From a bacterium (lineage in GTDB: Bacteria > Joyebacterota > Joyebacteria > Joyebacterales > Joyebacteraceae): a DNA stretch of 54,462 bases. The first letter of the stretch is position 1; each line of letters begins with the position of its first letter. The DNA lies in the NCBI GenBank assembly GCA_025774245.1, contig JALGWI010000010.1, positions 1 to 54,462 of the forward strand, given 5' to 3'. Of the stretch, positions 41,410 to 51,840 are shown one piece after another. The position numbers and the translations under genes are program-made. Under the pieces are notes generated by a model. The model searched no databases. It was not told the origin of the DNA and was given only the letters and a program-made list of their open reading frames with translations.

Positions 41410-41579
41410 GAAGCGCCGGAGCGCGCCGGAACCCCTCGAGAGCGCCCCCGGAGCGCGGCAGGAACGCCCGGAAGTGCCCCGGAGCGCACCGGGACGCCCC
41501 GGAACCGCCCCGGAGCACGCCGGAATCGCCTCGAACCCCCCGGAAGCGCCCCGGAACACCCCAGGAACGCCGCGAAAAG
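41410..41579. repeat. Helically phased GC-rich degenerate tandem repeat
   Basis: A ~10-11-base unit close to CGGARCGCCCC is repeated about 15 times. Copies of CGGA or a near match (CAGG, CGGG, TCGA) begin at 41417, 41427, 41436, 41449, 41459, 41469, 41480, 41490, 41500, 41511, 41521, 41531, 41541, 41552 and 41562. The mean spacing is 10.4 bases, about one DNA helical turn. It lies between the hairpin at 41326 and the promoter at 41614. The one open frame across it is Pro/Arg-rich and lacks any recognisable domain or ribosome site, so I treat it as non-coding. Confidence 0.7.
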
Positions 41580-41613: not shown

Positions 41614-41642
41614 TTGATTCGTGACGGGTGTTGTGCGATAAT
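41614..41642 (+). promoter_or_regulatory. Sigma-70-like promoter for the first C25 protease
   Basis: TTGATT at 41614-41619 and GATAAT at 41637-41642 are 17 bases apart, about 290 bp before ATG 41933. The matching promoter of the paralogous gene lies the same distance before its start. Confidence 0.65.
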
Positions 41643-41643
41643 A

Positions 41644-41932
41644 CCAGCGCACTAAGGGAAAGCTGACGCTGGCAATCATCGGCACGAGCTGGATCACAGG
41701 AGCGCGACGAAGCCGAGACTGCTACACACCGTTCCACAGGACGGAACGATCGGATCGAGGCAGCACGCGAACCACGCGCGTCCGTCGCGGTCCGGCGGCT
41801 CGGCCGGCGTCGAACCATCTCGTGCGAGCGCGACCACGCCGGGACCGGGACCGTCTTGCGGGCGAGTTCTTGGTCCCGGTTTTCGTGTGTGGTAGTCAAC
41901 TTCGGGGTTCAGTGAGCAGGAAGGAGTAAGTC
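41644..41932 (+). promoter_or_regulatory. Structured leader of the first C25 protease gene
   Basis: A ~290-nt leader with ordered structure. A stem CCAGCG/CGCTGG spans 41644-41672. TCGGC at 41679-41683 pairs with GCCGA at 41712-41716, enclosing CACAGGAGC and GCGACG. Next is ACTGCTAC at 41718-41725, then a hairpin CGTTCC/GGAACG (41730-41748) with loop ACAGGAC, then a GATCG..GGC..GCAC block, and a terminator-like hairpin at 41844. The same order and spacing recur before the second protease gene (46847-47124), with different bases but preserved pairing in the hairpin. GGAAGGAG precedes ATG 41933. It does not match a riboswitch class that I recognise. Confidence 0.5.
41844..41884 (+). terminator. 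Terminator-like hairpin within the first protease leader
   Basis: ACCGGGACC at 41844-41852 pairs perfectly with GGTCCCGGT at 41872-41880 and runs into TTTTCG, 53 bases before the start codon. Its location downstream of a promoter and upstream of the gene suggests attenuation rather than gene-end termination. GGGACC is present twice in a row at 41841-41852, allowing two pairing registers. Confidence 0.5.
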
Positions 41933-44900
41933 ATGGTGCGGAACGGACACGCCGTTCTCCTTGCCCTCCTCGTTCTGGCGCTCAGCGCGCTTCAGGCAGC
42001 AGCGGTGGGGCCCGTCGTCGAGACCTCCTACGATCCTTCACAGGTACAGATCCAGAGCAACGGGGAGTATGCGAGGCTCGCGATCAAGGGCGCGCGACAC
42101 ATCAAGACGCCGGGCGAGCCCGCTCTGCCGGTCGAGTACCTCTCGTTTGTGATTCCGGCGGACATGCGCGTCGAGGACGTCGTGATCACGTGGCTTGAGG
42201 AGACACAGCTTCCGGGGACGCATCGGGTGATCCCGGCACAGCCGGAGGTTCCCACCGGCGAGACGCCCCCGTGGGTCGGTCCCGATCCCTCGATCTACGA
42301 GATCGACGGGACGTGGCCCTCGGCGCGCGTCGAGTACCTGGGCGACGGCTACCTCGGCGGCTACCACATCGCGAGCGTGGCGGTCTATCCTCTGACCTAC
42401 GCCCCGACGACCGGGACGCTGACGCTGGCGACCAATATCGGGGTCGAGCTCTCCCTCGCCGCGGACGTGGATCGCTCGCTTCCACGACACAGGATGACGG
42501 CCCGCTCCGACCGGACGTACCGCGAGATCGTCGAGAACCTCGTGGCGAACCCGCACGAGGTGGCGGGGAAGCTCTCCGGTGTGGACGTGGTGGACGACGT
42601 GGGGCCGGAGGGGTTCATGCCCCGCTACTCGCCGTCCCTCGAGGGGAGTCCGGTCGAGTACATCATCATCACGACCGACGAGTTCCAGTCGCAGTTCCAG
42701 GAGCTTGCCGACTGGAAGACCAAGAAGGGCGTTCCGACCGTCGTCCGGACGATCGACTGGATCGAAGCGAACTACCCCGGCGGCTGTGACAGGGCGGAGC
42801 GGATCCGTCTCTTCATTCGAGACGCGTTCACCAGCTGGGGAACGACGTTCGTGCTCCTGGGCGGTGATACCGGCCACGTTCCCGTTCGCTACGCGTGGTC
42901 GGGCTACTACGGCGGCTGGGACATCTCGACCGACCTCTACTACAGCGACCTGGACGGGAACTGGAACGCGGACGGCGACAGCAAGTTCGGCGAAGCCTAC
43001 ATCAGCATCGCGACGCCGGGCGACAGCCTCGACCTCTACCCGGATGTCTTCGTCGGGCGCGCCCCGGTCGCGACGCCGATCGAGGTCGAGACGTTCATCG
43101 ACAAGGCGTTCGCGTACGAGAAGACGCCCGATCTCATCTTCGCGCGGCGGATCGCCTTCCTGGCCGAGGTCCTCTTCCCCTACGACTGGACGCCCGGTAC
43201 TTACATCACGACCGACGGCGCGGGCGACATCGTGGAGCCGTTGCTTCACCTGATCCCGCACTGGATCCACTACACGCGCCTCTACCAGAACTACGAGGCG
43301 TATCCCGGCTCCTACCCCCTGACGCATCAGTCGGCGATCGATTCGATGAACGCGGGCTACAACATCGTCTCGCACGTCGGCCACGGCAACAAGGACGTCC
43401 TGAGGGTCAGCAGGGGCAACTACATAAGCCCGCAGGACGCCGACGCTCTCGTGAACGGCGTCGACAAGTCCGGCTTCTTCTGGATGCTGAACTGCTCGTC
43501 GACGGCCATCGAGTACGATTGCATCTCCGAGCACTTCCTCAACAACCCCGACGGGGGCGGATCGCTGCTCTTCGGGCCGACCCGCTTCTGCTTCCCGACG
43601 ACCGCCGACGAATACTTCTACGACTGGTTCGAGGAGCTCTACGTGGTCGGCGCGACGCAGGCCGGGATGACGTCCGCGAACTGCAAGCTCGACTTCATCC
43701 CCGCGTCGTTCTACGACAACACCGACCGGTGGACGCAGCTCTCGTTCCTGCTGCTCGGCGATCCGGAGGTCAGGATCTGGACGCACGAGCCGGAGATGCT
43801 GACGGTGATCCACGATCCGTCGATCCCGCTCGGGGCGACCGATCTCACGGTCTCGGTCTCCGACCCGGGCGCCGTTGAGGGCGCGCTCGTCTGCGTCGTC
43901 AAGGAGGACGAGGTCTACGCGACCGGGTACACCAACGGTTCGGGACAGGTCGTGCTCTCGTTCACACCGAAGACGACGGGCACGATGACCATCGCCGTCA
44001 CCGCGGAGAACCACCTCCCGTACGAGGACACGATCGGTGTCTCATCGTCGACCGGTCCGCACCTGACACTCAGGACGATCGTCGTCGATGATGACGACCT
44101 CGGCTGGAGCGACGGCAACGGGAACGGCAAGGCGGAGGCCGGAGAGGCCATCGAGCTCGACGTGACCATCGGGAACGGCGGCCAGAGCGGCGCCACGAAC
44201 GTGACGGCGACGCTCGTGGACGGCGACCCGTACGTCACGCTCATCGACAACACCCATTTCCTGGGGACGATCCCGCCCGGCACCGAGCTCACGTACCAGG
44301 ACGCCTTCCTGCTCTCGATCTCGGACGACTGCCCGAACGAGCACGACGTGGCGCTCGAACTCGTCATGGACGACGGGAGCCGGGCGACGTGGACGAGCGA
44401 CTACGTCCTCAGGGTCTATCGTCCGGAGCTTCTGCAGGTGTGGAACGACGTCGACGACGGCCCGGGAGGGAACGGCGTGCCCGGCGTCGGCGAGACGATC
44501 GTCCTGACGATCGACGTCCTGAACGAGGGGAACGGAGACGCCGACATCGTGACGGGCGTCCTACGGTATCCGGGAGCCGAGGTGACGATCACCGACAGCA
44601 CGGACACATGGGGCGACATCGGCGAAGCCGGGACGGTTGCAGGTCTTGGCGGGTTCGTCTTCGACGTGGAGGCCCCGTTCTGGGGGCACTTCCAGCTTCT
44701 CCTCTACGACGAGGACGGCAAGGAGTGGACGAGCTATTTCGACCTCGATCGACCGCTCTCCCTCTTCGGACTCGAGGGACACGTCAGGGGCACGACGATC
44801 TACCTCGACTGGCAGCTCTCCGAGGAGTTCGACCTCTGGGGCTACAACATGTACCGCACCGACCATCCGGCGGGGACGTACCAGCTGGCGAACGACGGCG

Positions 44901-46642
44901 TCGTCGAGAGGATCTCGTACTTCGAGGACTCGGGACTCGCCGAGAACACGCGATACTACTATCGCGTCGCAGCCATCGATTCTTCCGGCAACGAGGGCCT
45001 GCTGTCGGCGACGCTCGAGATCAGCACGAACCCGCCGAGCCAAGCCGGGTGGCCGCTCTACGCGGGCGAGGCGAGCTACGGCACGCCCGCGCTCGCGGAT
45101 CTCGACCTCGACGGCGATCTGGAGATCCTGATCGGGTCCGGGGACGTCTACTGCTGGCATCACAACGGCGTTGAGTACATGGACGGCGATGGCGACCCGA
45201 GGACGAACGGCATCTTCACGGTCGACGGCGCGGGCGGCTACCGCTCGTCGCTCGCCATCGGCGAGCTGGACGGCGATCCCTATCCCGAGTTCATCGGCGC
45301 CTCGTGGGGCAACTTCGAGCGGGGGGACTATCGCGTGTTCGCCTGGAACGGGGACGACGGGACCCTCCTTGACGGTTGGCCGAGGTCGACGCCGGATTAC
45401 TGCTGGTCGACGCCGGCCCTGGGCGACCTCTCCGGCGACGGGCTCCACGACGTGGTCATCGCCTGTGACGACGGGAACCTCTACGCCTGGGACTCGTACG
45501 GACAGGAGCTGATCGACGGCGACGATAACCCCTTGACGGACGGCGTCTTCGCGTTCCTCGGGTGGGAGTTCGCGCACGGTTCGCCAGCGCTCGCCGACAT
45601 CGACGACGACATGGACCTCGAGATCATCATCGGGTCGCGGTCGGAGAGCCTCTACGTGTTCAACGCGGACGGCACCGACGTGCCCGGCTGGCCCGTCTGG
45701 TGCGGCACGATCGTGGCCGGTTCGCCGTGCGTGGCGGACCTCGACGCGGACGGGAGCTCCGAGATCATCGTCACGGCAAACAACGGCGACATGTTCGTCT
45801 TCAGCGCTTCGGGGGACACGCTTCCCGGGTGGCCGATCCCGATGGACATCGGCGGCGACTTCCCGCCGTCGCCCACGGTCGCGGACCTCTACGGGGAAGG
45901 CGAGCTCGTGATCATCCAGCCCGACGAGGACGGGCTGGTGCACGTTCTCACGATGGACGCGGAACCGGTGCCGGGATGGCCCCAGCCGATGGACACGGCC
46001 GCCAACTCGAGCGCGGCGGTCGGCGACGTAGACGGCGACTCCCACATGGACGTCGTCGTGACGAGCACATCGGGCAAGGTCTTCGCCTTCTCGGCGATCG
46101 GAGAGCTTCTGGACGGCTGGCCGATCCAGACGGACGCGGAGATCTACGCCACGCCGACGCTCGGCGATCTCGACCTCGACGGCGACATGGAGGTGGTCGT
46201 GGCCAGCCAGGACGTCTTCGTCTACATCTGGGACTGTGACGGCAACTACGCAGGCGGCGACGGGGTCGAGTGGGCGTCGTTCGGCCACGACTTCCAGCGA
46301 ACCGGGAACTACGACTACGAGCCTCTGACCGGCGTCGCCGAGGACGACGGGACCGTCGCGCGCGTGCTGTCGCTCGAACAGAACGTCCCGAACCCCTTCA
46401 ACCCGATCACGATGATCGCCTACAACGTCCCGGCCGACGTCAGCGAGATCGAGGTCTCGGTCTACAACGTGGCGGGGCGGCTCGTGAGGACGCTCGTCGA
46501 GGGCGAGGTGGAGTCCGGTCGCGGCCAGGTCGTCTGGGACGGTCGGGACGCGGCGGGGGAGAAGGTCGCCTCTGGCGTCTACTTCGTGAGGCTCTCGGCG
46601 GAGCGCGCGTCGCGGACCAGGAAGATGGTCCTGCTCAAGTAA
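41933..46642 (+). CDS. Gingipain-family (C25) secreted protease with beta-propeller and sorting domain
   Basis: A 1569-residue exported protease. After the signal (MVRNGHAVLLALLVLALSAL) comes a propeptide-like region starting VVETSYDPSQVQI. A C25 caspase-like domain follows (about 235-610), with YIIITTDEF, FVLLGGDTGHVPVRYAW and the likely dyad His484 in SHVGHGN and Cys521 in MLNCSS. C-terminal modules are an Ig-like domain (LTVIHDPSIPLG), a CARDB-like pair with SDGNGNGKAEAGEAIEL, a fibronectin-III domain (DLWGYNMYRTDHPAGTY) and FG-GAP/VCBS-type propeller repeats (LADLDLDGDLEILIGSG). The end is a type IX-type sorting domain (NVPNPFNPITMIAYNV, SGVYFVRL, KMVLLK). It is likely displayed on or released from the cell surface. 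GAAGGAG precedes ATG 41933. Confidence 0.9.
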   Translation: MVRNGHAVLLALLVLALSALQAAAVGPVVETSYDPSQVQIQSNGEYARLAIKGARHIKTPGEPALPVEYLSFVIPADMRVEDVVITWLEETQLPGTHRVIPAQPEVPTGETPPWVGPDPSIYEIDGTWPSARVEYLGDGYLGGYHIASVAVYPLTYAPTTGTLTLATNIGVELSLAADVDRSLPRHRMTARSDRTYREIVENLVANPHEVAGKLSGVDVVDDVGPEGFMPRYSPSLEGSPVEYIIITTDEFQSQFQELADWKTKKGVPTVVRTIDWIEANYPGGCDRAERIRLFIRDAFTSWGTTFVLLGGDTGHVPVRYAWSGYYGGWDISTDLYYSDLDGNWNADGDSKFGEAYISIATPGDSLDLYPDVFVGRAPVATPIEVETFIDKAFAYEKTPDLIFARRIAFLAEVLFPYDWTPGTYITTDGAGDIVEPLLHLIPHWIHYTRLYQNYEAYPGSYPLTHQSAIDSMNAGYNIVSHVGHGNKDVLRVSRGNYISPQDADALVNGVDKSGFFWMLNCSSTAIEYDCISEHFLNNPDGGGSLLFGPTRFCFPTTADEYFYDWFEELYVVGATQAGMTSANCKLDFIPASFYDNTDRWTQLSFLLLGDPEVRIWTHEPEMLTVIHDPSIPLGATDLTVSVSDPGAVEGALVCVVKEDEVYATGYTNGSGQVVLSFTPKTTGTMTIAVTAENHLPYEDTIGVSSSTGPHLTLRTIVVDDDDLGWSDGNGNGKAEAGEAIELDVTIGNGGQSGATNVTATLVDGDPYVTLIDNTHFLGTIPPGTELTYQDAFLLSISDDCPNEHDVALELVMDDGSRATWTSDYVLRVYRPELLQVWNDVDDGPGGNGVPGVGETIVLTIDVLNEGNGDADIVTGVLRYPGAEVTITDSTDTWGDIGEAGTVAGLGGFVFDVEAPFWGHFQLLLYDEDGKEWTSYFDLDRPLSLFGLEGHVRGTTIYLDWQLSEEFDLWGYNMYRTDHPAGTYQLANDGVVERISYFEDSGLAENTRYYYRVAAIDSSGNEGLLSATLEISTNPPSQAGWPLYAGEASYGTPALADLDLDGDLEILIGSGDVYCWHHNGVEYMDGDGDPRTNGIFTVDGAGGYRSSLAIGELDGDPYPEFIGASWGNFERGDYRVFAWNGDDGTLLDGWPRSTPDYCWSTPALGDLSGDGLHDVVIACDDGNLYAWDSYGQELIDGDDNPLTDGVFAFLGWEFAHGSPALADIDDDMDLEIIIGSRSESLYVFNADGTDVPGWPVWCGTIVAGSPCVADLDADGSSEIIVTANNGDMFVFSASGDTLPGWPIPMDIGGDFPPSPTVADLYGEGELVIIQPDEDGLVHVLTMDAEPVPGWPQPMDTAANSSAAVGDVDGDSHMDVVVTSTSGKVFAFSAIGELLDGWPIQTDAEIYATPTLGDLDLDGDMEVVVASQDVFVYIWDCDGNYAGGDGVEWASFGHDFQRTGNYDYEPLTGVAEDDGTVARVLSLEQNVPNPFNPITMIAYNVPADVSEIEVSVYNVAGRLVRTLVEGEVESGRGQVVWDGRDAAGEKVASGVYFVRLSAERASRTRKMVLLK

Positions 46643-46690
46643 GGCCGCCGCCGGCGCCACTCGTGACGACAACTGCGTCACCACATCCGG

Positions 46691-46716
46691 GGGAGCGGTC
46701 GATCGCGGCCGCTCCC
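46691..46716 (+). terminator. GC-rich hairpin after the first C25 protease
   Basis: GGGAGCGG pairs perfectly with CCGCTCCC around a ten-base loop, 48 bp after the stop. There is no T run. It may end transcription before the next promoter at 46810. The rest of 46643-46809 shows no gene. Confidence 0.45.
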
Positions 46717-46809
46717 TCCGGCGTGGAGCCCCGGGCGGCCGGGACGGGTGCCGACGGGCTCCCGCGCGGTCGCGGAACCCGCCACAGGCCGGGGGTCATC
46801 TGCAGGAGC

Positions 46810-46838
46810 TTGCGATCTGCTGCGGATTGTGGTATACT
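46810..46838 (+). promoter_or_regulatory. Sigma-70-like promoter for the second C25 protease
   Basis: TTGCGA at 46810-46815 and TATACT at 46833-46838 are 17 bases apart, about 286 bp before ATG 47125. The -10 differs from TATAAT at one position. Confidence 0.72.
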
Positions 46839-46846
46839 CAGAGAGT

Positions 46847-47124
46847 CGAGGAGATACCTTTGGCTGCCCCTCGTGGGGCACGTCGGCTCACGGGAGCTGC
46901 GACAGGCCGACACTGCTACGAGTCGTGACAGAGCACGAGGCTTTGGGATCGGGGCGCCGCACGGAGGGAGCGCGTGCGCCGTCGATCGACGGCTCGGCGC
47001 GGCGTCGGTCGGTGTGACCGGCACAATCGCGCCAGGATCGGGCACCGCCGCGGCATGGGCCCGGATCCTGGTTTCTGTTTTGTGCGATCCTGCAGCGGAC
47101 CGGTTCGAGTGGGAGGGAAGGTCG
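46847..47124 (+). promoter_or_regulatory. Structured leader of the second C25 protease gene
   Basis: This leader is co-linear with 41644-41932. A stem near the transcription start (CGAGG/CCTCG at 46847-46873, or alternatively TGCCCC/GGGGCA) comes first. TCGGC (46883-46887) pairs with GCCGA (46906-46910), enclosing CACGGGAGC and GCGAC. ACTGCTAC is at 46912-46919, and a hairpin TCGTG/CACGA (46923-46938) has loop ACAGAG. GGGATCGGGGC then precedes the terminator-like hairpin at 47033. The -10-to-ACTGCTAC distances are 74 and 76 bases in the two leaders, and ACTGCTAC to terminal hairpin 121 and 126. GGGAGGGA precedes ATG 47125. Confidence 0.5.
47033..47092 (+). terminator. Terminator-like hairpin with a competing partner in the second protease leader
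   Basis: CAGGATCGGG at 47033-47042 pairs (one bulge) with CCCGGATCCTG at 47060-47070, followed by GTTTCTGTTTT. The same left arm (CAGGATCG) is also perfectly complementary to CGATCCTG at 47085-47092, just past the T-rich stretch. The two pairings are mutually exclusive, an arrangement typical of attenuators. Confidence 0.5.
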
Positions 47125-50100
47125 ATGGCTCCGAGATGGCTCGCCTGTCTTCTCGTGATCCCGATCCTGGCGCTCGGAGCGGCGCTCGCGTCCGCCGCCG
47201 GCCCCTCGGTCGAGACCTCGTACGATCCCTCGGAGGTCGCCCTCCGGGCGCTTCGCGGGTACACGAGCGTGACGATCGCCGGAACGGAAGCGATCACCAC
47301 GCCGGGAGCTCCGGAGCTTCCGGTCGCGCACCTCTCGTTCGTAATCCCTTCCGACTTCCGCGTCGAGGACGTGGTGTCATCGTGGTCCGAGGAGGAGCTC
47401 CCTGGCACGCACCGCGTCGTGCCGGTCCAGCCCGACGTCCCGATCGGCGAACCGACGGAGTGGGTCGATCCCGACCCGTCGATCTACGACAGCGAGAGCC
47501 CGTACCCGGCGAACCGCGTCGTCTACGCGGGCGAGGGCTTCCTCGGTGGCTACAGGATCGCAACGGTGACGGTCTATCCCGTCACGTACGCCCCGCGGAC
47601 GGGCAAGCTGACCCTGGCGCGCGACCTCTCGGTCGAGCTCGTGCTCGCACCCGCCGCGGACAGCCCCCAGCCGCGCCACCGGATGACGGCTCGCTCTGAC
47701 CGGCTCTACCGGAGCCTGGTGGGGAGCCTCGTCGAGAACCCGGGCGACGTCGCCGGGAAGCTCCCCGGCGTCGAGATCGTCGAGGACGTCGGTCCCGGAG
47801 GCTTCGATCCCCGCTACACGCCCTCGCTCGAGGGCAGTCCCGTCGAGTACGTGATCGTGACGAGCGACGAGTTCGCGCCAGCGTTCCAGGAGTACGCCGA
47901 CTGGAAGACGAAGAAGGGCGTCCCGAGCGTCGTGAGGACGGTGGCATGGATCGAGGTGAACTACCCCGGCGGGTGCGACGCGGCTGAGCGGATCAGGATG
48001 TTCCTCAAGGACGCCTTCTCGTCGTGGGGGACGACGTACGTCCTTCTGGGAGGCGACACGGCGATCGTCCCGCTCAGGTACGCCTGGACCGACTACTACG
48101 GCGGGTGGGACATCACCTGTGATCTCTACTTCAGCGATCTCGACCGCAACTGGAACGCCGACGGCGACGAGAAGTTCGGCGAGGCCTACACGAACAGCAC
48201 CGATCCCGGCGACAGCACCGATCTCTACCCGGACGTCTTCGTCGGCCGCGCACCTGTGGCGACCGCTGTCGAGGTTGAGACCTTCCTCGACAAGGCACTC
48301 GCGTACGAGAAGGCGCCGGACATCGCCTTCGCCGGGAGGGATCTCTTTCTGGGTGAGGTGATCTTCCCGTACAACTGGCAGCCGGGCGAGGAGATCGACA
48401 CCGACGCTGCGGAGCACATCATCGAGCCCGTTCTTCCCAACATCCCGCCGGAGGTTCACTACACGCGCCTCTACCAGAACAACACGGCGTTCCCGGGATC
48501 CTACCCGCTGGGGAGGGAAGCGACGATCGACTCCATGAACGTCGGCTACAACATCACCTGCCACGTCGGGCACGCCAACAAGGACATCCTGAGGGTCAGC
48601 TGGGGTGAGTACATCAAGATGGAGGACGTCGACGCACTCGCGAACGGCGTCGACCGCTCGGGGTTCCTCTGGATGCTGAACTGCTCGACGTCGGCAATCG
48701 AGTTCGACTGCATCTCCGAGCGCTTCATGAACAACCCCGACGGCGGCGCGTCGTCGCTCTGGGGTCCGTCCCGCTACTGCACGCCGGCCACGGTCCGGCG
48801 CTATTTCTGGCACTGGTACGACTACCTCTTCCTCGAGCAGACCAAGAGGGCCGGCGTGGTCTGCTCGATGAGCAAGGTGCCGCGCATCCCGCTGGCGATC
48901 TACGACAACAACGACCGCTGGACGCAGCTCTCGTACTTCTATCTCGGCGACCCCGAGGTCCGACTGTGGAGGGCGCGGCCGTCGCAGCTGACGGTGATCC
49001 ACGACCCGGCGATCCCGCTCGGGGAGACCAATCTCCTCGTGTCGGTCTCAGACCCTGCGGCCGTCGACAGCGCGCTCGTCTGCGTGATGAAGGAGGGGGA
49101 GGTCTACGCGACCGGCGTGACCGACGCCTCCGGGCAGGTGACGCTCTCGTTCACGCCCGAGACGACGGGCGCGATGTCGATCACCGTCACGGCCGCTGAG
49201 TATCTTCCGTACGAGGAGGAGATCAGCGTCTCGCCCACGGCGGCCGCCCACCTGTTCGTGAACGAGGTGACGATCGACGACGACGACGTCGGCTGGAGCG
49301 ACGGCAACGGGAACGGCAGGGCCGAGGCCGGCGAGGCGATCGAGCTCGACATCGTCGTGGAGAACGGCGGGCAGGGCGGCGCCACGAACGTCTCCGCCAC
49401 GCTTCTGAACGGCGACGGCTACATCACGCTCGTCGACGACTCCCACTACCTCGGCACCATTCCGCCGGGGACCGAGGTGGCGTTCCAGGACGCCTTCCTG
49501 ATCTCGATCGCCGACAGCTGTCCGAACGAGTACGACGTCCCGCTCACGTTCGTCATGACCGACGAGGCGCGATCGACCTGGCAGACCGACTACCTCCTCC
49601 GCGTCTTCAGGCCGGAGCTGGTGCAGGTCGAAAACGACGTCGACGACGGCATCGCCGGGAACGGGACGCCCGACGTGGGGGAGAGCGTCATCCTCACGAT
49701 CGACGTTCTGAACGAGGGAAACGGAGCGGCGGATCTGGTGGCCGGTGTCCTGAGCTACCCGGACTCGTCGGTGGCGATCACCGACAGCAGCGACACGTGG
49801 GGCGACATCGCCGAAGGGACCACGGTGACAGGCTCAGGCGGGTTCGCGTTCGACGTCGTCGCGCCGATCAACGAGCCCTTCCAGCTTCTCCTCTCCGACG
49901 AGGACGGGAAGGAGTGGACCCACTCGTTCGACCTCACGCGTCCGGCCGTCGTCGAGAGCGTCAGGGCGTCCGTCCGGGCGACGACGATCTACCTCCGGTG
50001 GGAGCCGGCCGGCGACGCCGACCTGTGGGGCTACAACATCTACCGCACCGACCACCCCGCGGGCACCTACCAGCTCGCGAACGACGCGGTCGTCGAGCGG

Positions 50101-51840
50101 GCCTCGTACTTCGAGGACGCAGGGCTCGACGAATACACGCTCTACTACTACCGGGTGTCCTCGGTCGACTCGTCGGGGAACGTCGGCGAGGGATCCGAGA
50201 TGATCGAGGTCAGCACGAATCCTCCCGCGCAGGAGGGGTGGCCACTCCTGGGCGGCGGGACGATGTACGGCACGCCGACGCTCGCGGACATCGATCTGGA
50301 CGGCGACCTCGAGGTTCTCGTGGGATCGGGGGACGTCTACTGCTGGCACCACAACGGCATCGAGTACATGGACGGAGACGGCGACCCGCGGACCAACGGG
50401 ATCTTCGCGGTCGAAGGCATCGGCGGGTACCGGTCGTCTCTCTCCGTCGGCGAGATGGACGGCGACCCCTATCCCGAGATCGTCGGCGCGCCGTGGGGCA
50501 ACTACGGGACGATCGAGGATCCCGAGTACCGCGTCTACGCCTGGAACGCGGACGACGGAACGGTCCTCTCGGGCTGGCCCGTGACGACCGGCAGCTTCTG
50601 CTGGGCGACGCCGGCGCTGGGCGACCTCACCGGCGACGGGCTCCACGACGTCGTCCTGCCGTGCGCGGACGGGTTCCTCTACGGGTGGAAGCGGACCGGC
50701 GAAGAGTTGATCGACGGGGACGACAACCCGGCGACGGAGGGCATCTTCGCGAACCTGTCGTGGGAGTGGGCGTACGGCTCGCCGACGCTCGCCGATCTGG
50801 ACTTCGACACCGAGCTCGAAATCATCGTTCCGTCGCGCTCCGAGAGCATCTACGTCTTCAACCCCGACGGGTCGCTCCTGCCGGGCTGGCCGGTGTGGGC
50901 GGGAGAGTTCGCGATGGCGTCTCCGTGCGTGGCGGACCTCGACGTCGACGGCAACCCGGAGATCATCGTCGCGGTCAACGACAGCAGGATGTTCGTCTTC
51001 AACGCGGCCGGCGACACGCTTCCCGGGTGGCCGGCCGTGATCGACATCGGCGGGGACTTCCCGCCCTCGCCGTCGGTCGCCGACCTCGACGGCGACGGCA
51101 TGTTCGAGATCATCCAGCCGAACGAGTACGGCGACATCTACGTGATGTCGCTCGCGGGCGACACGCTCCAGCTCTGGTACGATGTGCTCGATGGAAACAC
51201 GGGCTCGAGTGTCACGGTCGGCGACGTCGACGGGGACGGCGAGGACGACCTCCTCGTCGCGGGCTGGTCGGGCAAGATCTTTGCGTTCAGCTCCAACGGC
51301 GTCCCCCTGGACGGCTGGCCGATCCAGACGGACGCGGAGGTGTTCGCCACCCCGACCCTGGGCGATCTCGACCTCGACGGCGACGTCGAGGTGGTCGGCG
51401 CGGGAATGGACGGGATGGTCTACGTCTGGGACTGCGAGGGCATCTACGCCGACGGCGAGGGCGTCCAGTGGCCGACCTTCCGGTACGACTTCATGCGGAC
51501 CGGGAACTTCGGGTTCGAGCCGGACGTCGGCGTGGCGGAGGGCGAGGACGATGCGCGCCTCCGACTCGACCTCGAGCAGAACCATCCGAACCCGTTCAAT
51601 CCGGTGACCTCGATCGCGTACACGGTGCCGGCCGGCGTCAGCGAGATCGAACTCTGCGTGTACAACCTGGCGGGACAACTCGTGCGGACGCTCGCGGCGG
51701 GAGAGACCGAGCCCGGGCGTCACATGACGGCCTGGAACGCTCGCGACGCGGGCGGCAAGCGCGTCGCTTCTGGCGTCTACTTCGTGCGGCTGTCGGCGGG
51801 TGACGTCTCGAGGACCAGGAAGCTCGTCCTCCTCAAGTAG
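47125..51840 (+). CDS. Second gingipain-family (C25) secreted protease, paralogue
   Basis: A 1571-residue paralogue of the preceding protease with the same order of parts: signal (MAPRWLACLLVIPILALG), propeptide-like VETSYDPSEVAL, C25 domain, Ig-like domain, SDGNGNGRAEAGEAIEL module, fibronectin-III domain (DLWGYNIYRTDHPAGTY), propeller repeats and a sorting tail (NHPNPFNPVTSIAYTV, SGVYFVRL, RKLVLLK). The likely dyad is His483 in CHVGHAN and Cys520 in MLNCSTS. Glycine after the histidine in the sister protein (HGN) is alanine here (HAN), which may tune or weaken activity. The frame is open from 46270, but that part overlaps the previous gene out of frame; ATG 47125 with GGGAGGGA is the start. 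It has its own promoter and leader. Confidence 0.9.
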   Translation: MAPRWLACLLVIPILALGAALASAAGPSVETSYDPSEVALRALRGYTSVTIAGTEAITTPGAPELPVAHLSFVIPSDFRVEDVVSSWSEEELPGTHRVVPVQPDVPIGEPTEWVDPDPSIYDSESPYPANRVVYAGEGFLGGYRIATVTVYPVTYAPRTGKLTLARDLSVELVLAPAADSPQPRHRMTARSDRLYRSLVGSLVENPGDVAGKLPGVEIVEDVGPGGFDPRYTPSLEGSPVEYVIVTSDEFAPAFQEYADWKTKKGVPSVVRTVAWIEVNYPGGCDAAERIRMFLKDAFSSWGTTYVLLGGDTAIVPLRYAWTDYYGGWDITCDLYFSDLDRNWNADGDEKFGEAYTNSTDPGDSTDLYPDVFVGRAPVATAVEVETFLDKALAYEKAPDIAFAGRDLFLGEVIFPYNWQPGEEIDTDAAEHIIEPVLPNIPPEVHYTRLYQNNTAFPGSYPLGREATIDSMNVGYNITCHVGHANKDILRVSWGEYIKMEDVDALANGVDRSGFLWMLNCSTSAIEFDCISERFMNNPDGGASSLWGPSRYCTPATVRRYFWHWYDYLFLEQTKRAGVVCSMSKVPRIPLAIYDNNDRWTQLSYFYLGDPEVRLWRARPSQLTVIHDPAIPLGETNLLVSVSDPAAVDSALVCVMKEGEVYATGVTDASGQVTLSFTPETTGAMSITVTAAEYLPYEEEISVSPTAAAHLFVNEVTIDDDDVGWSDGNGNGRAEAGEAIELDIVVENGGQGGATNVSATLLNGDGYITLVDDSHYLGTIPPGTEVAFQDAFLISIADSCPNEYDVPLTFVMTDEARSTWQTDYLLRVFRPELVQVENDVDDGIAGNGTPDVGESVILTIDVLNEGNGAADLVAGVLSYPDSSVAITDSSDTWGDIAEGTTVTGSGGFAFDVVAPINEPFQLLLSDEDGKEWTHSFDLTRPAVVESVRASVRATTIYLRWEPAGDADLWGYNIYRTDHPAGTYQLANDAVVERASYFEDAGLDEYTLYYYRVSSVDSSGNVGEGSEMIEVSTNPPAQEGWPLLGGGTMYGTPTLADIDLDGDLEVLVGSGDVYCWHHNGIEYMDGDGDPRTNGIFAVEGIGGYRSSLSVGEMDGDPYPEIVGAPWGNYGTIEDPEYRVYAWNADDGTVLSGWPVTTGSFCWATPALGDLTGDGLHDVVLPCADGFLYGWKRTGEELIDGDDNPATEGIFANLSWEWAYGSPTLADLDFDTELEIIVPSRSESIYVFNPDGSLLPGWPVWAGEFAMASPCVADLDVDGNPEIIVAVNDSRMFVFNAAGDTLPGWPAVIDIGGDFPPSPSVADLDGDGMFEIIQPNEYGDIYVMSLAGDTLQLWYDVLDGNTGSSVTVGDVDGDGEDDLLVAGWSGKIFAFSSNGVPLDGWPIQTDAEVFATPTLGDLDLDGDVEVVGAGMDGMVYVWDCEGIYADGEGVQWPTFRYDFMRTGNFGFEPDVGVAEGEDDARLRLDLEQNHPNPFNPVTSIAYTVPAGVSEIELCVYNLAGQLVRTLAAGETEPGRHMTAWNARDAGGKRVASGVYFVRLSAGDVSRTRKLVLLK

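Follow-up and report, generated by a model that had tools for sequence, protein, structure and literature searches.

The window, by which we mean the whole stretch of 54,462 nucleotides that was analysed, contains two genes for C25 proteases, paralogues with 65% identity to each other, and each of them is preceded by its own promoter and leader:

41614 to 41642, plus strand: promoter of leader 1, TTGATT-17-GATAAT with TG before the -10; 76 nt from the -10 end to CTGCTA
41933 to 46642, plus strand: C25 protease gene 1, 1569 aa, with Peptidase_C25, FG-GAP repeats and a FlgD-like/secretion tail
46810 to 46838, plus strand: promoter of leader 2, TTGCGA-17-TATACT; 74 nt from the -10 end to CTGCTA
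47125 to 51840, plus strand: C25 protease gene 2, 1571 aa, with Peptidase_C25, FG-GAP repeats and a FlgD-like tail

These sigma-70-type sites lie where the initial annotation had placed the promoters, and the computed distances agree with its spacing of 74 to 76 bases after the -10. The block that it had described as common to both leaders, GGAG...ACTGCTAC, had two matches in the window against 0.01 expected. Each leader taken alone folded only barely better than its shuffles (z of -1.2 and -1.4), and the case was therefore built on homologues. A degenerate G+C-rich tandem repeat (41416-41576), with periods of 10, 21, 31 and 41 and CCGGAACGCCC-like units, also lies ahead of leader 1, after the upstream gene.

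The homologues came from the home genome and 19 more of the same phylum, giving 20 genomes (G000-G019) of one family and eight genera, with about 8 to 30 C25 genes per genome. The home genome has 22, and C25 genes in this phylum often adjoin each other. Both window genes fall in a single C25 subfamily, which has four members in the home genome. Forty further upstream regions were added, so that with the two window genes, and less one region at a contig end, 41 could be read. A core of the form C[A/G]GGAG-N13-18-ACUGC[U/G]A was present upstream of 39 of these 41 subfamily genes from the 20 genomes, L156 and L173 being the two without a clear element. The core is conserved in 44 loci while the flanking leader sequence has diverged. 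Of the 41 leaders scanned, 33 have the end of the -10 at 71 to 77 nt before CTGCTA, and the promoters are mostly near-consensus with an extended -10. One longer distance, 99 nt at L153 (G003:C445), is due to a tandem duplication of the GGAG-core stretch, in which CCCCCAAGTCCAAGGTCACAGGAGCTACGCCAA occurs twice. At 127-140 kb of G002:C2 three subfamily proteases stand in tandem; two of their leaders have no recognisable promoter, and L156, in the same array, has a decayed core. At L158 the element and terminator hairpin sit close behind the upstream gene with no recognisable promoter of their own, a layout that fits a role at the RNA level.

The core was specific to these genes. Loosened patterns gave 23 matches in the home genome, four of them real copies that lie before exactly the four subfamily genes with promoter scores of 9.5 to 11.5; the other 19 had promoter scores of 7 or less and lay inside open frames of at least 339 codons. 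Matches to CAGGAG...ACTGCTA across the phylum divided in much the same way. No copy of the core was found before an unrelated gene in the pattern searches of the home genome, of the 20 genomes of the phylum or of a second phylum. The general riboswitch ahead of unrelated genes that the initial annotation implied was not borne out, every real copy that we found preceding a C25 gene.

The second phylum is that of L035, labelled Krumholzibacteriota, in which 80 genomes were scanned with a stricter core pattern. It matched six times; four of the matches, in four genomes, lie 80 to 88 nt after a near-perfect promoter and before C25-type proteins, and the remaining two matches have no promoter. These copies have only the core, in a shorter form, in leaders too short for the helices described below, and either the core may predate the attenuator or the element may have been simplified in this phylum. 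A looser pattern, applied to six genomes from other loci (Eisenbacteria, Zixibacteria, KSB1 and others), produced chance-like matches only. A possible variant core, GGAG...GGCTA, was seen 86 to 102 nt after a good promoter in three C25 leaders at distant loci (L038, L042 and L050).

When each leader was folded from the core through to the distal strand, the core proved to supply the 5' side of three helices, P1, P2 (the mid region) and P3 (ACUGC/GCAGU), nested around a variable domain, P4, with the partner strand usually 60 to 85 nt further on and 130 nt in one subgroup. The leaders fall into two groups. In the group II leaders the core AACAGGAGUC can pair over 8 to 12 bp with GACUCCUGUU, which is followed by T's just before the gene. 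Group I, to which the window belongs, has the same P2 and P3, and its element closes ahead of a terminator-like hairpin that stands apart from it, at a distance of 4 to 41 nt and usually about 12. The parts of the two window copies are:

41694 to 41702, plus strand: element 1, 5' strand of P1 (TCACAGGAG), including the conserved CAGGAG at 41697-41702, part of the core kept in 44 loci
41705 to 41717, plus strand: element 1, 5' strand of P2, CGACG at 41705-41709 and GCCGAG at 41712-41717 (group I P2 swap test, p=0.0001)
41719 to 41724, plus strand: element 1, conserved CTGCTA, of which CTGC is the 5' strand of P3
41795 to 41812, plus strand: element 1, distal 3' strands, P3' GCGG at 41795-41798 and P2' CTCGGC at 41799-41804 and CGTCG at 41808-41812
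41819 to 41827, plus strand: element 1, 3' strand of P1 (CTCGTGCGA), from duplex prediction; the pairing with 41694-41702 is weak and interrupted in this copy
46885 to 46896, plus strand: element 2, 5' strand of P1, GGCTCAC and the conserved CGGGAG at 46891-46896; pairing with 47014-47019 recognised by eye
46900 to 46910, plus strand: element 2, 5' strand of P2, CGAC at 46900-46903 and GCCGA at 46906-46910, from the sequence and the group I P2 test
46913 to 46918, plus strand: element 2, conserved CTGCTA, from sequence conservation
46994 to 47007, plus strand: element 2, distal P2' strands, TCGGC at 46994-46998 and GTCG at 47004-47007, from the sequence and the swap tests
47014 to 47019, plus strand: element 2, 3' strand of P1, GTGACC, recognised by eye from the sequence

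The pairing was assessed with a partner-swap test, in which each core was scored against a downstream segment, taken without selection both from its own leader and from every other one, so that the partner strand was not chosen by hand. Duplexes with the own partner averaged -33.4 against -28.8 for permuted partners (sd 0.58), a gain of 4.6 kcal/mol or 8 sd (p<5e-5), and the same swap was significant within group I (p=0.007) and group II (p<5e-5). Helix by helix, 25 representatives gave p=1e-4 for P1, p<5e-5 for P2 and p=9e-4 for P3; for group I alone in this set the overall value was p=0.001 and that for P2 p=1e-4, and P1 alone was not significant (p=0.07). Six control region pairs with the same composition and descent gave no signal (p=0.19 to 0.996). 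In an alignment of the arms of 14 sequences, mainly of group II and with the variable domain left out, 84% of cells were paired compared with 32-49% in slid versions, and there were 32 two-sided changes against 11.7 when shuffled, a number reached in none of 500 shuffles. Because the helices were already in mind when this alignment was chosen, the swap test is the cleaner evidence. For the group I arms MAFFT left the 3' strand too unreliably aligned for pair counting, and swap tests were therefore used. The elements folded well beyond their shuffles (mean z -3.7; -1.8 for element 1 and -2.9 for element 2), and the core alone showed no folding excess. A covariance model built mainly on group II (R2) missed the window copies; run over whole genomes, where 150 candidates per genome were scored, it was sensitive to group II only. 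Based on these data, the conserved core and the covarying helices P1 to P3 support a structured cis-regulatory leader.

The helices are not the ones first drawn. The initial annotation had the core enclosed by a TCGGC/GCCGA stem, which most homologues lack; the longest helix possible there had a mean of 3.59 bp against 3.71 bp in shuffled sequences (44 homologues) and the swap test in group I gave p=0.18; it had overlooked that in the window copies GCCGA(G) has its partner in a TCGGC 84 to 88 nt further downstream. The short hairpin that it placed after ACTGCTAC fared better in one respect, its arms covarying modestly in group I (p=0.009), and worse in another, there being no folding excess overall (mean z -0.15). 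Both copies lie inside P4:

41730 to 41748, plus strand: short hairpin of leader 1 (CGTTCC/GGAACG), inside the variable P4 domain
46923 to 46940, plus strand: short hairpin of leader 2 (TCGTG/CACGA), inside P4

The structure of the two-sequence model that it had suggested (R1, whole leader) was uninformative. Two outcomes had been named as counting against the idea: an absence of hits at unrelated genes, which is what we observed, and an absence of covariation among aligned homologues, which we did not, as covariation is present in P1 to P3 rather than in the main stem drawn. Among other pairings tried, a local AGgAG/CUgCU hairpin proposed by RNAalifold on the core was rejected, its pairs being invariant or changed on one side only, and it was undercut further by variation of the CU side in the second phylum (ACNGCUA). 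A conserved 5' hairpin ahead of the core was weak (mean z -0.57) and did not covary with the core (p=0.82), and pairing of the core with the Shine-Dalgarno region was likewise discarded for want of covariation (p=0.69).

Both leaders end, as had been proposed, in a terminator-like hairpin followed by T-rich sequence:

41839 to 41887, plus strand: terminator-like hairpin of leader 1 (hairpin 41839-41879) with tail TTTTCGTG; arms covary, p=0.0001
47032 to 47084, plus strand: terminator-like hairpin of leader 2 (hairpin 47032-47071) with tail TTTCTGTTTTGTG, from the hairpin and tail composition

Across leaders the arms of this hairpin covary (swap p=1e-4), and the eight bases 3' of it are 61% T in both groups as against 17-19% in the leaders. 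It always lies between promoter and start codon, after P1 in group I and fused to P1 in group II, where the 3' strand of P1 followed by the T-run is itself the putative terminator. The arrangement that defines an intrinsic-terminator attenuator, a hairpin and T-run between promoter and start codon, was found except at L155, L164 and L169, which have almost no T-run. Elsewhere T-runs are short or interrupted in places, and termination may therefore be weak or absent in some copies. No promoter-like site was found between hairpin and ATG in the window, those found lying upstream of the hairpins, and transcripts from the window promoters must therefore cross the hairpin. We infer that the hairpin terminates transcription and that read-through is regulated. 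An antiterminator was sought in group I and not found, the core showing no covariation with the terminator (p=0.75) and the 3' strand of the element showing no alternative pairing with the 5' arm of the terminator (p=0.46).

We think it rather likely, judging from sequence comparison, that each leader is a conserved cis-acting transcription attenuator of one secreted C25 protease subfamily, and the cell probably sets production of the protease by letting transcription pass or stop there. RNA polymerase would start at the strong promoter and first make the conserved single strand C[A/G]GGAG...ACUGCUA, and the complementary strand, emerging about 60 to 85 nt later (130 nt in one subgroup), would fold back on it as P1, P2 and P3 around the variable hairpin domain. 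In group I an intrinsic terminator would form right after P1, and in group II the 3' strand of P1 with its T-run would be the terminator. The conserved letters are mainly in the strand that is made first, suggesting that something recognises this strand while its partner has yet to emerge; a signal, be it a ligand, a small RNA or a protein that binds RNA, may act on it before or during folding and so set the frequency of read-through into the protease. In this model the direction of the switch is likewise something that we infer.

If the element instead bound a small molecule or ion directly, with the stability of P1 setting the terminator, it would be a true riboswitch. Its compact conserved structure followed by a terminator, the fusion of P1 and terminator in one group, the concentration of conserved nucleotides in one region and the covarying helices of what could be an aptamer are all consistent with this. 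However, riboswitches typically, if not strictly, precede several functionally linked genes, and this element occurs only before one protease subfamily and never before a transporter or biosynthetic gene; most of its conserved letters belong to helix strands and do not gather in a single loop pocket, P4 is highly variable, and no Rfam class matches. We regard a riboswitch as unlikely. We would also not expect, though with some reserve, that the leader controls translation or mRNA stability through a bound protein or small RNA, the hairpin being a stability or insulation element. The Krumholzibacteriota copies, with the core and a short leader that lacks a conserved terminator-like hairpin, and the tails that lack T-runs would suit such control, but in most copies of both groups a T-rich tail directly follows the hairpin, and no covariation was seen between the core and the Shine-Dalgarno region, as noted above.

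The remaining explanations are far less probable. The leaders could be alike simply because a whole gene unit was copied, without any function, and the 65% identity of the proteases and a leader similarity that partly tracks descent agree with this. However, core and compensated helices persist over eight genera despite a diverged surrounding leader, the swap tests show co-change, and another phylum again has the core ahead of C25 genes, so that plain duplication is very unlikely. A downstream activator or repressor site acting at the DNA level would account for the fixed distance from the promoter in most leaders, but the spacing inside the motif itself shifts by several bases, compensation between paired strands 60 to 130 bases apart is a feature of RNA, and L158 keeps the element and terminator without a recognisable promoter of its own, all of which makes such a site highly improbable. 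Attenuation through a leader peptide, whose ribosome site would be the Shine-Dalgarno-like GGAG upstream of the terminator, is hard to credit when none of the 44 leaders has ATG, GTG or TTG 4 to 12 nt after GGAG and there is no recurring short frame. Control of the CsrA/Rsm type, with CsrA on GGA sites of the leader (6.9 per leader against 5.6 shuffled) and ACAGGAG resembling one of its sites, has next to no likelihood, as CsrA (PF02599) was absent from 20 of 20 genomes of the phylum and CsrA-bearing control genomes did match.

No Rfam 15 family reached its gathering threshold on any leader, in agreement with the lack of a recognised riboswitch class in the initial annotation, and none matched even at E = 5-10, the best hits on the leaders being at chance level. 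A search of the open-licence literature found no published description of these leaders. The suggestion of an undescribed cis-regulatory RNA for surface proteases is upheld by covariation in aligned homologues, by specificity to C25 genes and by this lack of an Rfam match; the kind, a structured attenuator leader, is known, and the family is not described. Like the leaders of transcription-attenuating riboswitches, these have a promoter, a conserved structured RNA with covarying helices and a terminator before the start codon, but they serve one gene family only, match nothing in Rfam and, in one group, use the closing helix of the element of about 130 nt as the terminator stem. Protein-responsive attenuators such as the L10(L12)4-dependent rplJL leader (PMC4538822) also place one gene unit under a leader RNA whose recognition by a factor determines termination; here such a factor is a candidate, and the target is a secreted protease subfamily rather than ribosomal proteins. 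T-box leaders share the long structured leader and terminator, and group II has an upstream tRNA gene, but there was no Rfam T-box match and the tRNA is a separate neighbouring gene. In most genomes the group II protease has this tRNA gene a short way upstream (L174, L176-L178, L180, L183, L185, L188 and L189), which suggests positional orthology of these loci. Flavo-1 has been described in Flavobacterium psychrophilum together with peptidase genes that have structured 5' UTRs (PMC9723704), and these too are structured leaders of peptidases in bacteria with many secreted proteases; that species belongs to another phylum, however, that paper does not link Flavo-1 to any single gene family, and the absence of Rfam matches here extends to Flavo-1.

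As a bolder reading of the attenuator, which we offer tentatively and as possible rather than probable, the leaders may represent a new sensory RNA class, either a riboswitch or dependent on a factor, that is devoted to secreted C25 proteases and present in two uncultured phyla. The helix that closes this sensor would double as the terminator, so that a single structure would both sense and terminate. One protease subfamily appears to be under dedicated RNA control, and this gives a first testable entry point to gene regulation in a phylum that is known from assembled genomes alone. If the attenuator model is true, an orphan regulatory RNA specific to one gene family has persisted across eight genera, a related core being present in another phylum, and the signal to which it responds may tell us under what circumstances these bacteria produce secreted proteases.
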